Positions 7,962-27,355 of a DNA stretch of 64,000 bases are shown piece by piece. How positions within the stretch are numbered: the first letter of the stretch is position 1; each line of letters begins with the position of its first letter. Source of the DNA: Vitreoscilla filiformis (GTDB lineage Bacteria; Pseudomonadota; Gammaproteobacteria; Burkholderiales; Burkholderiaceae_C); assembly GCF_002222655.1 (NCBI RefSeq), contig NZ_CP022423.1:1860001-1924000 (forward strand), read 5' to 3'. The position numbers were made by a program, and so were the translations under genes. Below the pieces are notes generated by a model. That model was not told the DNA's origin and ran no database searches. It worked only from the letters and a program-made list of their open reading frames with translations.

Positions 7962-7996
7962 AGAATTGCCGCCGCTGTGACCTTGGTGCGTCGCAA

Positions 7997-8050
7997 CCCC
8001 TCACCCCGGCCCTCTCCCGCAAGGGGAGAGGGGTTGGGGAGAGGGGGCAG
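7997..8050. repeat. REP-like palindromic repeat, copy A
   Basis: The core CCCTCTCCCGCAAGGGGAGA is palindromic and is followed by a purine tail ending GGGGAGAGGGGGC. The same core and tail occur twice more, at 26278-26320 and 26397-26436, always in intergenic DNA of the accessory stretches. It lies just upstream of the HEPN gene. Confidence 0.7.
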
Positions 8051-8080
8051 CCACCGCAGCGAGCACACCTGGAACGACGC

Positions 8081-14744: not shown

Positions 14745-14820
14745 GGGTTGTTAGCTCAGTCGGTAGAGCAGCGGACTTTTAATCCGTTGGTCGCAGGTTC
14801 GAATCCTGCACAACCCACCA
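14745..14820 (+). tRNA. tRNA-Lys (anticodon TTT)
   Basis: This is a 76-nt cloverleaf with an encoded CCA. The acceptor GGGTTGT pairs with ACAACCC. The anticodon loop CTTTTAA gives TTT at 14778-14780, and the T-arm GCAGG-TTCGAAT-CCTGC is perfect. It is the first of three lysine tRNAs and differs from the other two mainly in the acceptor stem and anticodon. Confidence 0.97.
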
Positions 14821-14836
14821 AAACTTGACTGCGTGG

Positions 14837-14912
14837 GGGCTCTTAGCTCAGTTGGTAGAGCAGCGGACTCTTAATCCGTTGGTCGTAGGTTCGAATCCTA
14901 CAGGGCCCACCA
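14837..14912 (+). tRNA. tRNA-Lys (anticodon CTT), copy 1
   Basis: This is a 76-nt cloverleaf with encoded CCA. The acceptor GGGCTCT pairs with AGGGCCC (one G-T pair), and the anticodon CTT is at 14870-14872 in the loop CTCTTAA. It is identical to the third tRNA, at 14958-15033. Confidence 0.97.
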
Positions 14913-14915
14913 AAA

Positions 14916-14943
14916 TTTCCAAAAACAAGTTTTGTGCCATAAT
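14916..14943 (+). promoter_or_regulatory. possible internal promoter before the third tRNA-Lys
   Basis: TTTCCA (14916-14921) and CATAAT (14938-14943), 16 bp apart, lie 14 bp before the third tRNA. The string TGTGCCATAAT is shared with the first promoter (14715-14725), which suggests that a promoter-plus-tRNA unit was duplicated. Confidence 0.4.
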
Positions 14944-14957
14944 CAAGGCTTGTTTTC

Positions 14958-15033
14958 GGGCTCTTAGCTCAGTTGGTAGAGCAGCGGACTCTTAATCCGT
15001 TGGTCGTAGGTTCGAATCCTACAGGGCCCACCA
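14958..15033 (+). tRNA. tRNA-Lys (anticodon CTT), copy 2
   Basis: Identical in sequence to the tRNA at 14837-14912, including the CCA end, with anticodon CTT at 14991-14993. It is followed within 10 bp by an intrinsic terminator. Confidence 0.97.
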
Positions 15034-25043: not shown

Positions 25044-26141
25044 ATGCAGCAGGTACTCAACAGGGGGGCACAACGCCCTGGGTGGCCCGTCCGGGGCGTG
25101 GTGATGATGGCTTTGGCTGGTGGTCTGGCCGGTTGTGGCGGCGGGGATGGGGGTTCGAGCGATGAGGCGCGCTACGGTGTGGGTGGCACGCTGTCTGGGT
25201 TGGCATCGGGGGGCTCGGTGGTGGTGCAGCTCAATGGCGCCAACACCGTGACGTTGACGGCCAACGGCAGTTTCGTGTTTGGTGGCACGCTGGCCACGGG
25301 CACGGCGTATGTCGTGGCGATCAAAACCCAGCCCAGTGGCCAAGCGTGTACCGTGGCCCATGGCAGCGGCACCCTGGCGGGGCGTGCGGTGAATGATGTG
25401 GCGGTGACGTGTGCCGACACCCCTGCCGCCACCGGCAAACTGCCCGACACCGGCATCACCGCCAGCCAGTGTTACGCCGTTGCCAGCGATGCGTTGGTGA
25501 GCTGCACCAGCGCCGCTGCCAAGGCCCTGAACCCCGCGCAAGATGGCATGACGGGCCGGGATGTGACCAGCTCCAGCAACGCCGATGGCAAGCTGGGTTT
25601 CAGCTACACCAAGATCGCGGCCGATGGCAGCACGTTGCCCGCCAGCGCCACCACTTGGGATTGTGTGAAAGACAACATCACCGGCCTGATGTGGGAGGTG
25701 AAAACAGCGGATGGCGGTTTGCGGGATGTGAACAAAACCTACACCCACTACACCAGCACCACCGAGGCGCAGTTCTGGAACGGCTCGGCGTACGTACCGC
25801 CCACCCAGGCGCAGATTGACGCCGCCACCAACACCGTGGGCTATGTGGCCGCTGTGAATGCTGCTGGCCTGTGCGGCAAGACGGACTGGCGCTTGCCCAC
25901 CGTAGATGAACTGCAAGGGTTGGTGGATTACGGGGTGGACTACACCACCGATAAGCCGATGATTGATGAAACCTACTTCCCCAACACGGCAGTTAGTGGG
26001 GATACGTGGGGTTGGGGGGGGTACTGGGCGTCGTCCCCGGTGGTGGGCAGCCCGGACAGCGCCTGGTACGTCAACTTCGGCTACGGCGACGTCTACGGCA
26101 ACGACCGCGGCAACACCGGCCATGTCCGGTTGGTGCGGTAG
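25044..26141 (+). CDS. DUF1566 (Lcl-type) lipoprotein with DGR-like variable C-terminus
   Basis: This 365-residue lipoprotein has a signal peptide and lipobox LAGC with Cys31, a Gly/Ser stretch, and an Ig-like domain (SGLASGGSVVVQLNGANTV ... GTLAGRAVNDVAVTCAD, about 45-125). A C-terminal DUF1566 domain follows (WDCVKDNITGLMWEVK, KTDWRLPTVDELQGLVDYG, YWASSPVVGSPDSAW). DUF1566 has the C-type-lectin fold used as a surface ligand-binding scaffold, including in DGR targets. The last 39 codons form a variable region also found in the next gene. The start at 25044 has GGGAG 6 nt upstream; an ATG at 25038 is the alternative. The ligand is unknown. Confidence 0.82.
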   Translation: MQQVLNRGAQRPGWPVRGVVMMALAGGLAGCGGGDGGSSDEARYGVGGTLSGLASGGSVVVQLNGANTVTLTANGSFVFGGTLATGTAYVVAIKTQPSGQACTVAHGSGTLAGRAVNDVAVTCADTPAATGKLPDTGITASQCYAVASDALVSCTSAAAKALNPAQDGMTGRDVTSSSNADGKLGFSYTKIAADGSTLPASATTWDCVKDNITGLMWEVKTADGGLRDVNKTYTHYTSTTEAQFWNGSAYVPPTQAQIDAATNTVGYVAAVNAAGLCGKTDWRLPTVDELQGLVDYGVDYTTDKPMIDETYFPNTAVSGDTWGWGGYWASSPVVGSPDSAWYVNFGYGDVYGNDRGNTGHVRLVR

Positions 26142-26171
26142 TTGGGGGTGAGGTTGCCCGTCAGTGTTTGG
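26020..26171 (+). repeat. DGR-type variable region, copy 1, with shared 3' block
   Basis: The sequence from GGTACTGG to the stop TAG (26139-26141), plus 30 further bases, is shared with 26841-26992. The two copies differ at 19 positions in 13 codons, always first or second codon positions. In 16 of these sites one copy has A, and in the other three both can derive from A. The last 51 bases (26121-26171), starting with CATGTCCGGTTGGTGCGG, are identical and cross the stop codon. This matches adenine-specific mutagenic homing, with an invariant 3' block acting like an IMH. Confidence 0.75.
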
Positions 26172-26187
26172 CTTGTTGGAGAAACGT

Positions 26188-26270
26188 GTGAATTTGCCCC
26201 TACCCCCCATTTATCGGGATTGCCGGCGCCTGCTGGTGCATACCGAGGAGCTGGTGCGCCGATGCAACGG
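26188..26270 (+). pseudogene. 5' fragment resembling a DGR accessory (avd) gene
   Basis: From a GTG with GGAG 9 nt upstream, the frame reads MNLPLPPIYRDCRRLLVHTE and then ELVRRC, after which it runs into a REP-like repeat. The fragment resembles the first helix of Avd-type four-helix-bundle proteins that accompany DGR reverse transcriptases. The rest of the gene (about 90-100 residues) is missing. Its place right after the variable region is where avd sits in many DGR loci. The identification is by eye on about 26 residues. Confidence 0.45.
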
Positions 26271-26277
26271 TTTGGCT

Positions 26278-26320
26278 CCCCTCTCCCCTTGCGGGAGAGG
26301 GGCTGGGGGAGAGGGGGCGC
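26278..26320. repeat. REP-like palindromic repeat, copy B (inverted)
   Basis: The sequence from CCCTCTCCCCTTGCGGGAGA to GGGGGCG is the reverse complement of the element at 26397-26436. The two are separated by about 75 bp and could fold into one long hairpin, like a REP doublet. It truncates the avd-like fragment. Confidence 0.72.
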
Positions 26321-26396
26321 CACACCCACAACGCCTGCACCAGCTCCAGCATGTGGAGTTGAGTTTTGCGGCGGGCTTTCCTGCGGGCCACGGTTT
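26321..26396. other. segment between inverted REP-like copies, no confident gene
   Basis: About 75 bp lie between the two inverted repeats. On the minus strand the frame ETVARRKARRKTQLHMLEL followed by VQALWVWR looks weakly coding and could be a relic of a deleted gene, but it is too short to identify. The remaining intergenic DNA to 26494 shows only a T-run (26458-26465). Confidence 0.3.
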
Positions 26397-26436
26397 CCCC
26401 CTCTCCCCAACCCCTCTCCCGCAAGGGGAGAGGGGC
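26397..26436. repeat. REP-like palindromic repeat, copy C
   Basis: CCCCCTCTCCCCAACCCCTC followed by the palindromic core CTCCCGCAAGGGGAGAGGGG. It is the inverted partner of copy B and shares its core with copy A at 7997-8050. Confidence 0.72.
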
Positions 26437-26494
26437 TTTACGTGGCAGGGCAATGTGTTTTTTTTGAACTTGTTGGATGCATAGGGAGCTTGAC

Positions 26495-26962
26495 ATGATG
26501 AACCTTCTTCCCCCCTCTGCCCGCTGGGCTTTGCTGGCGGGCCTGTGCCTGCTCGGCAGCGCCCAGGCGCAAAGCCGCTACACCGTGGCCAGCAGCGGCA
26601 CCGAGGTGACGGACACCAAAACCGGCCTGACCTGGCAGCGTTGCAGCGCGGGCCAAAGCTGGAATGGCAGCACCTGTACCGGCAGCGCCGCCACCTACAC
26701 CCACGAGCAGGCGTTGGCCTACGCCAAAACGCAGACGGGCTGGCGCCTGCCCTCGGTGAAGGAGCTGTCCAGTTTGGCCGATAAGGGCCGCAGCAACCCA
26801 GCCATTGACACCACCGCTTTCCCGGCAACAGCCTCTGACTGGTACTGGACGTCGTCCCCGGTGGTGGGCTCCCCGGTCAGCGCCTGGGACGTCAGCTTCA
26901 ACTACGGCGGCGTCAACGGCGCCAGCCGCGACCTCACCTACCATGTCCGGTTGGTGCGGTAG
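26495..26962 (+). CDS. secreted DUF1566 protein with DGR-like variable C-terminus
   Basis: This 155-residue protein has a signal peptide (ALLAGLCLLGSAQAQ, no lipobox) followed by a minimal DUF1566 domain: TDTKTGLTWQRCSAGQSWNG, TYTHEQALAYAKTQTGWRLP and SVKELSSLADKG, then YWTSSPVVGSPVSAWDVSF. It is essentially only the C-type-lectin-like scaffold. The last 39 codons are the second copy of the variable region, diverged from the first only at first and second codon positions. The start at 26495 has GGGAG 6 nt upstream; the next codon is also ATG. It is probably periplasmic or secreted; the ligand is unknown. Confidence 0.82.
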   Translation: MMNLLPPSARWALLAGLCLLGSAQAQSRYTVASSGTEVTDTKTGLTWQRCSAGQSWNGSTCTGSAATYTHEQALAYAKTQTGWRLPSVKELSSLADKGRSNPAIDTTAFPATASDWYWTSSPVVGSPVSAWDVSFNYGGVNGASRDLTYHVRLVR

Positions 26963-26992
26963 TTGGGGGTGAGGTTGCCCGTCAGTGTTTGG
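26841..26992 (+). repeat. DGR-type variable region, copy 2, with shared 3' block
   Basis: This is the counterpart of 26020-26171. The identical 3' block is 26942-26992 and includes the stop codon TAG (26960-26962) and 30 bases beyond; after GTGTTTGG the two loci diverge completely. Variable codons here read ACG, TCC, GTC, GAC, AGC, AAC, GGC, AAC, GCC, AGC, GAC, CTC and TAC. Confidence 0.75.
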
Positions 26993-27037
26993 GGCGCGTA
27001 GCGCCTTTGGGGCATGCGCCCTGTGCGGGGAAAGGGC

Positions 27038-27355
27038 TCAAGCGTGGCGCAGATCTGCAAAGTTGCTGATCCTCACCGCACCGTCAGGAAAGCGGGCCAC
27101 CACTTCCAGCTCACCTCCCATCGCCTCAATGTGGCTGCGCAATGTGGAGATGTACATGTCGGCCCGCTTTTCCATTTTGGCAATCGCGGGGTGCTGGACG
27201 TGCAGCACATCCGCCAGCATTTTTTGCGAGAGCCCACGCGCTTGCCTCAGCTCTTGCAGGGGCATTTCGGCCAGCATGGCCTGAGCTTGGGCGGCAGATT
27301 GCGCCTGGGCTTCGGGTGTCATGCTGGCCCGCAGATGTGCAAACTTTTTAGTCAT
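27038..27355 (-). CDS. XRE-family HTH protein, solitary HigA-like antitoxin
   Basis: This 105-residue protein has a helix-turn-helix (LQELRQARGLSQKMLADVLHV, then AIAKMEKR) and the C-terminal IEAMGGELEVVARFPDGAVRI that is usual in antitoxins partnered with Gp49/HigB-type RNases. Such proteins bind and silence the toxin and repress their own operon. The start at 27353-27355 overlaps the stop of a toxin remnant (27348-27428) by 8 bp, the normal toxin-first order. The toxin is reduced to its last 27 codons, so this antitoxin probably has no cognate partner here. Confidence 0.82.
   Translation of the reverse strand: MTKKFAHLRASMTPEAQAQSAAQAQAMLAEMPLQELRQARGLSQKMLADVLHVQHPAIAKMEKRADMYISTLRSHIEAMGGELEVVARFPDGAVRISNFADLRHA

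Follow-up and report, generated by a model that had tools for sequence, protein, structure and literature searches.

Two DUF1566 genes of Vitreoscilla filiformis as probable orphan targets of a lost diversity-generating retroelement

What has written the 3' ends of two neighbouring DUF1566 genes in Vitreoscilla filiformis, and where is the writer? The two genes lie in a stretch of 64,000 nucleotides, here called the window, which corresponds to C1:1860001-1924000 of the host genome (G000; 3,787,551 bases in three contigs of 3,464,895, 282,640 and 40,016, with a completeness figure of 100%). An earlier reading of these letters without database searches (the sequence-only reading) had proposed that each gene ends in a variable region (VR) bearing the adenine-mutagenesis signature of a diversity-generating retroelement (DGR), and had seen neither a reverse transcriptase (RT) nor a template repeat (TR) nearby. 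We consider it highly probable that the genes are DGR targets which were diversified by mutagenic retrohoming, and that the machinery has since been lost from this strain, or was never part of it, leaving a scar with orphan targets. The parts of the locus are the following, in window coordinates.

25044..26141, plus strand: target gene 1, a lipoprotein-like DUF1566/Lcl_C protein of 365 amino acids with VR1 at its C terminus (PF07603, E 1.7e-29)
26022..26171, plus strand: VR1 and 30 bases beyond the stop, common to VR2 (by sequence comparison)
26188..26271, plus strand: putative avd remnant (DGR accessory protein), about the first 28 codons and then broken (by Avd similarity)
26278..26435, no strand assigned: element resembling repetitive extragenic palindromes or miniature inverted-repeat transposable elements (REP/MITE-like), with 31-nt inverted arms at 26278-26308 and 26405-26435, adjoining the avd fragment
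26495..26962, plus strand: target gene 2, a secreted single-domain DUF1566/Lcl_C protein of 155 amino acids with VR2 at its C terminus (PF07603, E 2.4e-30)
26843..26992, plus strand: VR2 and 30 bases beyond the stop, common to VR1 (by sequence comparison)
26993..27005, plus strand: short hairpin GGCGC-GTA-GCGCC 3' of VR2, at the position of a DGR target hairpin (by fold comparison)

The PF07603 matches bear out the assignment of both genes to DUF1566, the former name of Lcl_C. The database form of the gene 1 product (P0121) has 365 amino acids and the N terminus MQQV. Judged by eye, gene 1 carries the lipobox LAGC and gene 2 a signal peptide.

The first line of evidence is the base pattern of the two VRs. 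The near-identical block begins at TACTGG (26022). Over the 40 aligned codons, 13 codons differ by 19 bases, of which 9 fall in first, 10 in second and none in third positions (p = 4.5e-4 against an expectation of one third). One copy has A at 16 of the 19 differing bases, and 12 of the 13 changed codons have C in third position, GCG/ACG being the one that does not. An identical block of 51 bases (26121-26171 and 26942-26992) spans both stop codons. Our recomputation returned all the numbers that had been given by the sequence-only reading. Upstream of the VR, by contrast, the two genes differ 24/21/30 by codon position (75 differences in 49 alignable codons, 49% DNA identity), and the third-position share there is significantly different from that in the VR (Fisher p = 2.8e-4). 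Thus, the VR behaves unlike the remainder of the gene, and the lack of any third-position change suggests that it was written recently.

If adenines of a template were the source of these differences, they should coincide with adenines in TRs of real DGRs. We searched 399 genomes of the family (genomes are given G-numbers) with a predicted template, in which the variable codons were set to AAC. At least 48 genomes matched, with two candidates scored per genome, so that the counts are lower bounds. Seven genomes with E < 1e-10 were examined; the other 41 are weak matches (E 3e-6 to 1e-3), one of which, G315, was reached by another route, and another, G029, was looked at in part. Complete DGRs were found in G405 and G266 through this search, in G027 through a separate DNA search and in G279 through an RT search. 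The TR of G405 is 83% identical to the predicted template over 90 bp, and 16 of the 18 alignable VR1/VR2 differences fall on its adenines, with two off. Since a query with AAC pre-set favours a match to A, the test was repeated on G279, reached via its RT; again, 16 of 18 differences fall on A (p 2.5e-7). The TRs of G266 and G027 give likewise 16/18; within the stretch tested, that of G266 does not differ from that of G405. The unmodified VR1 and VR2 are 64-73% identical to the four TRs. In G405 itself, the two VRs differ 9/8/0 by codon position, and their differences from their own TR are at adenines in 14/15 and 14/14 cases.

The second line of evidence comes from natural variation in proteins. 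When the gene 2 product was compared with 5.8 billion proteins, 642 relatives were obtained at E <= 1e-10, the best 120 of which were listed. The relative P0002 differs from it at 12 of 39 VR residues and at 1 of 116 others (p 1.6e-7), that is, almost solely in the VR. P0003, P0004, P0005, P0006 and P0007 show 13, 18, 13, 16 and 15 differences per 39 VR residues, respectively, versus 9, 8, 14, 15 and 25 per 116 elsewhere. In an alignment of 78 rows, made up of the window protein and 77 relatives out of the 120 listed, 12 of the 13 VR sites are within the 17 most variable positions, and the mean entropy is 2.94 bits at the 13 sites versus 0.95 at the other 117 scored positions. Furthermore, E, K, Q, M and W make up only 17 of 1010 residues at the 13 sites, compared with 1158 of 7089 in residues 26-116 (16%, invariant columns included); this rarity is expected of NNC or NNT codons. 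The same count in P0002-P0007 alone gives a weak contrast (0/84 at the sites vs 2/75 outside). Three relatives of gene 1 vary in the VR as well. Hypervariability of the sites in nature, a hallmark of DGR targets, is therefore seen at the protein level, site 119 excepted.

The predicted fold agrees with this. An AlphaFold2 model of the gene 2 product (pLDDT, predicted local distance difference test, 89) has the C-type lectin fold of known DGR variable proteins, with the VR at the C-terminal end of that domain, as in DGR targets. A first model built from 16 sequences was poor (pLDDT 58) and was discarded, and no solved structure was matched by sequence below E 0.1. The adenine-mutagenesis proposal thus holds on the TR adenines, on the sites that vary among relatives and on the fold.

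The two genes with their VRs had been recognized from the sequence; what we add is that an avd fragment and a repeat element lie between them. The fragment at 26188-26271 has 86% identity over 21 amino acids with the avd that lies broken in G315 (E 2e-10, 15 stretches being searched) and 50% over 18 amino acids with the G279 Avd. Of 2000 shuffles, 0, 0 and 1 reached its score against the Avds of G279, G405 and G027, respectively. When plasmid, phage and protein collections were searched with the fragment, the window's own frame was the sole match below E 1. Among the complete Avds, that of G405 (40.3 bits) passes the bAvd Pfam cut-off of 40 bits. In complete cassettes the order is VR gene, avd, TR and RT, so that avd sits between the VR gene and the TR. 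The arms of the REP/MITE-like element are related to window 7985-8054 and to L019 11740-11781 (within the 193 kb of G000 searched), and a REP pattern of our own had no match in the window. G315 offers a parallel: gene A is followed by avd in two pieces with an insertion and then by gene B, with no TR within the 30 kb searched, and its VR pair differs 11/12/3 by codon position with one gap placed at the fewest differences. A screen of 399 genomes with the DGR RT query, the only RT screen of G315, found a DGR RT in 16, and G315 is not among them, the sample being taken as the same. The scars of G315 and G000 may go back to one event or to two. With the avd fragment and the repeat element, the locus looks like cassette remains besides two targets. 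Unless an RT and a TR are supplied from elsewhere, the system is unlikely to be active in this strain.

The absence of a visible RT or TR, noted for the window, extends to the searches of the whole genome. DNA searches of G000 with VR1 and with the predicted template gave only VR1, VR2 and one older VR-like copy (E < 0.01; best 40 of 42 candidates in the VR1 search). The third copy (VR3) was considered as a further fresh VR and rejected: its third-position differences (8/37 and 8/41) have built up. It belongs to an older DUF1566 gene (L020 5973-6482, on C1; VR-like part 1754363-1754511) that shares the tail GTCAGTGTTTGGG and the hairpin. The motif filter of the upstream comparison is no census of such genes: it recovers four of the eight that carry Lcl_C in G000, and it finds none in G044 or G279.

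As for the RT, a profile search of G000 returned nine RVT_1 matches, none of them DGR, and the same search does pick up the DGR RTs of G027, G266 and G405. A DGR RT query at E <= 1e-6 matched only an RT-Cas1 fusion (L001 1285-3324, C1:2206956-2208995), in which TIGR00287 (213 bits) and a group II RT (288 bits) are joined in one frame; the best DGR RT match of the genome, 43% over 87 amino acids, was identified as this protein and set aside. Seven of the nine matches are group II maturase copies, six of which do not differ in their last 300 residues, a truncated copy being among the six; L003 was profile-scanned and the rest were compared with it. The copies lie at C1:1019275, 1194227, 2351824, 2356119, 2358821, 2361522 and 3334349, four of them, including the truncated one, within about 10.3 kb. 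The remaining match is a retron-type RT (L019 5248-6453, C1, minus strand; best PADLOC model RT_V, 337 bits). This retron-like RT, at C1:1390715, was rejected as the mutator, its class being shared neither with G435 (as scanned) nor with G377. More generally, retron and group II RTs were not supported as VR writers: the RT class differs among the VR genomes G000, G044 and G435, and G377 has none.

Taken together, these data suggest the following course of events. An error-prone RT, working with Avd, would have copied an AAC-rich TR RNA, adenines would have turned into random bases, and the cDNA would have replaced the 3' ends of both genes, the result being NNC codons at about 13 sites of the C-type-lectin domain. 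The ancestral order would have been gene 1-avd-TR-RT-gene 2. In this lineage, avd would then have broken after about 28 codons, with the REP/MITE-like repeat at the break, and TR and RT, neither of which was found, would have gone. By inference, a single TR was the source of both VRs, the space between the genes once held TR and RT, the variable sites make up the binding face and the strain is now unable to diversify the genes on its own. The writer may have been lost here, or it may persist elsewhere in the population.

Further genera of the family also have VR pairs without a DGR RT. Such an RT was found in three of the seven genomes with a strong VR/TR match (G405, G266 and G027) and in none of the other four (G000, G044, G435 and G377). 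The VRs of G044, on two contigs, differ 10/7/1 by codon position; this genome is a metagenome-assembled genome (MAG), so its lack of an RT weighs less. Its RTs are retron-like and Drt3a-like, both under the cut-offs. In G435, the VR pair differs 14/11/3 with the best placement of the single gap, or 13/12/5 as aligned by the program, versus 11/8/24 upstream (p 1.4e-4, or 1.3e-3 with 13/12/5). G435 has seven RVT_1 matches, three of which were scanned, with group II as the best model (two above cut-off), and G377 has none. The G435 genes, whose VRs are at C2:86653-86805 and C2:95197-95350, about 8.5 kb apart, serve as an internal control.

Several observations weigh against the view that these genes are orphaned DGR targets. 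First, the template match is imperfect: at two of the varying codons, 12 and 30, the TR of G405 reads GCC and ACC, and the shared block extends 30 bases past the stop, beyond the TR-VR homology of G405. Second, site 119 (codon 3) differs between VR1 and VR2 and is not hypervariable in relatives, five unflagged positions (115, 129, 137, 142 and 148) are equally hypervariable, and P0122, one of the three relatives of gene 1, carries K, E and W in its VR. Third, the avd fragment is short, about 28 codons, without a Pfam or NCBIfam match, in an Avd search that covered the locus; even the Avd of G279, at 37.3 bits, is just under the Pfam cut-off of 40. Fourth, a TR well below 70% identity may escape the DNA searches of G000. 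Fifth, the stem of the VR2 hairpin is 5 bp long and its loop is GTA, rather than 7-10 bp with a GRNA loop (PMC3240598), it folds only modestly better than shuffles, and VR1 has no hairpin on its 3' side. The sequence-only reading had itself named what would count against it, namely no RT or TR anywhere in the genome together with variants off the A-derived sites or at third positions in sister strains. The former is what the searches gave; the latter could be followed in proteins only, where P0002-P0007 do not display it and P0122, as above, speaks against a DGR.

The hairpin merits some further comment. The passages of PMC3240598 on target hairpins describe stems of 7-10 bp with a GRNA loop, and those of PMC4372165 describe others with GRA triloops. 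At our loci a short hairpin follows VR2, VR3, the VRs of G044 and of G435, and gene B of G315 (the last by eye), with fold z of -1.6 for VR2, 0.1 for VR3, -2.2 and -2.8 for G044 a and b, and -2.2 for one G435 tail. Five tails, picked and aligned by hand with the G435 tails (tetraloop) and G315 gene A excluded, share a 5-bp stem and a triloop, and three of the five pairs are changed on both sides (equalled by 40 of 500 shuffles; covariation score, 0 of 500). No intrinsic terminator was called at the tail, and two were called elsewhere, at chance level. Since VR1 has no such hairpin, VR2 would be the better homing target if homing resumed.

Among other explanations, a possible though unlikely one is that diversification of the targets continues in trans, with a DGR RT and TR that are present in the population only at times (on a plasmid, in a phage or in intact siblings of this locus), the RT-less pair being a stable state. 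The VRs do look fresh, with 0/19 third positions and with P0002 at 12/39 in the VR vs 1/116 outside, G044 and G435 have RT-less pairs with the signature while G315 has a similar scar, and PMC10907252 reports trans action and coexisting structural variants for Thiohalocapsa. Moreover, a relative of gene 1 (P0122) and one of gene 2 (P0007) come from the same source, each on a contig of 2,659 bases; if these are one contig, it leaves no room for an RT between the genes. The shared contig is, however, deduced from equal size alone, and P0154, from another source, has the same size. A fitting donor did not emerge either: in 16 genomes of the genus, DGR-like RTs were found only in G001 and G004, near which the predicted template gave a weak match (74% over 39 nt) or none. 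These two RTs (G004 C2, L188; G001 C2, L189) are accompanied by near-repeats of 118-123 bp with 91% and 86% identity, which match the window VRs poorly. Mobile carriers were also sought. A search with the tail pattern CAGTGTTTGGGNNNCNNAGCNNCTTT returned just two contigs, both from the MAG behind G044 (genome_contigs, which may omit G000), and neither it nor the G435 form was found in a viral contig of IMG/VR. No phage record matches gene 2, its viral relatives are two distant loci of 30% and 36% identity, and the 55 related plasmid records are all below 60% identity; a phage or plasmid origin was rejected on these grounds.

A doubtful prospect is that several genera of the family maintain a stable RT-less cassette (gene A-avd stub-gene B), which DGR machinery from the population continues to rewrite in trans. 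If true, hypermutation targets and mutator would be separate genetic entities. To about the same degree, we find it improbable that the genes came in already diversified by horizontal transfer, with no RT ever here. This would account for the finding that none of the 15 other genomes of the genus matches the predicted template at E <= 1e-4 (8 candidates scored each), though four of them have relatives of the gene 2 protein at 45-52% identity; however, the avd fragment indicates that more of the cassette was once present, and erosion prior to transfer, which would fit, overlaps with loss of the cassette as we propose it. Very improbable is an origin without any retroelement, from paralogs under strong positive selection on the binding face with a recent 3' gene conversion, which would give the identical tail past the stop, whereas selection would not confine changes to A of independent TRs, spare third positions in three genomes (0/19, 1/18 and 3/28) or nearly exclude E/K/Q/M/W (17/1010).

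Orphaned DGR targets are not without precedent. According to PMC4891356, isolates of Treponema denticola have target genes without RT or TR, with VRs differing mostly at TR adenines, and these were called likely leftovers; the targets are of the formylglycine-generating-enzyme (FGE)-sulfatase type, and the passages on them mention no avd remnant between two targets. In Thiohalocapsa PB-PSB1, as PMC10907252 recounts in the sections on these elements, MITE-like repeats stand in place of the RT in DGR 4 and 5 and of the TR in DGR 7, with diverse targets; there, other DGRs or structural variants supply RT and TR, whereas none was found in the window genome. Bordetella phage BPP-1 likewise shows mutagenic homing into a C-type-lectin 3' end with a hairpin after the VR, but its DGR is complete and phage-borne, with an 8-bp stem and a GAAA loop, as given in the cited part of PMC3240598. 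The chromosomal DGRs of G405, G266, G279 and G027 share the target domain, the AAC-rich TR and the position of avd between VR gene and TR with the window locus; they differ in that avd, TR and RT are present, whereas only an avd fragment is left here. Leftover targets and MITE-eroded DGRs are thus already in print, and what is new is the N-terminal avd fragment between the genes. Searches of open-licence PMC papers gave no description of the locus itself.

One large metagenome survey, by its own account (PMC8144416), would not detect targets that do not adjoin an RT; RT-less targets are therefore easily missed by a survey that needs an RT neighbour. With VR pairs bearing the signature and no DGR RT found in G000, G044 and G435, and the pair with an avd scar in G315 (DGR RT query only), one can now test with what frequency a binding repertoire survives the loss of its mutator, whether it is then used in frozen form and whether mutator and target can reside in different cells. 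V. filiformis, a filamentous bacterium that is non-pathogenic and in industrial use (PMC5571427), lends itself readily to such a test.

Two neighbouring features may be mentioned. Just 3' of gene 2, on the minus strand, the window encodes a small helix-turn-helix, antitoxin-like protein (27038-27355, by eye). Further upstream, three tRNA-Lys genes stand in tandem at 14745-15033, with anticodons TTT, CTT and CTT.

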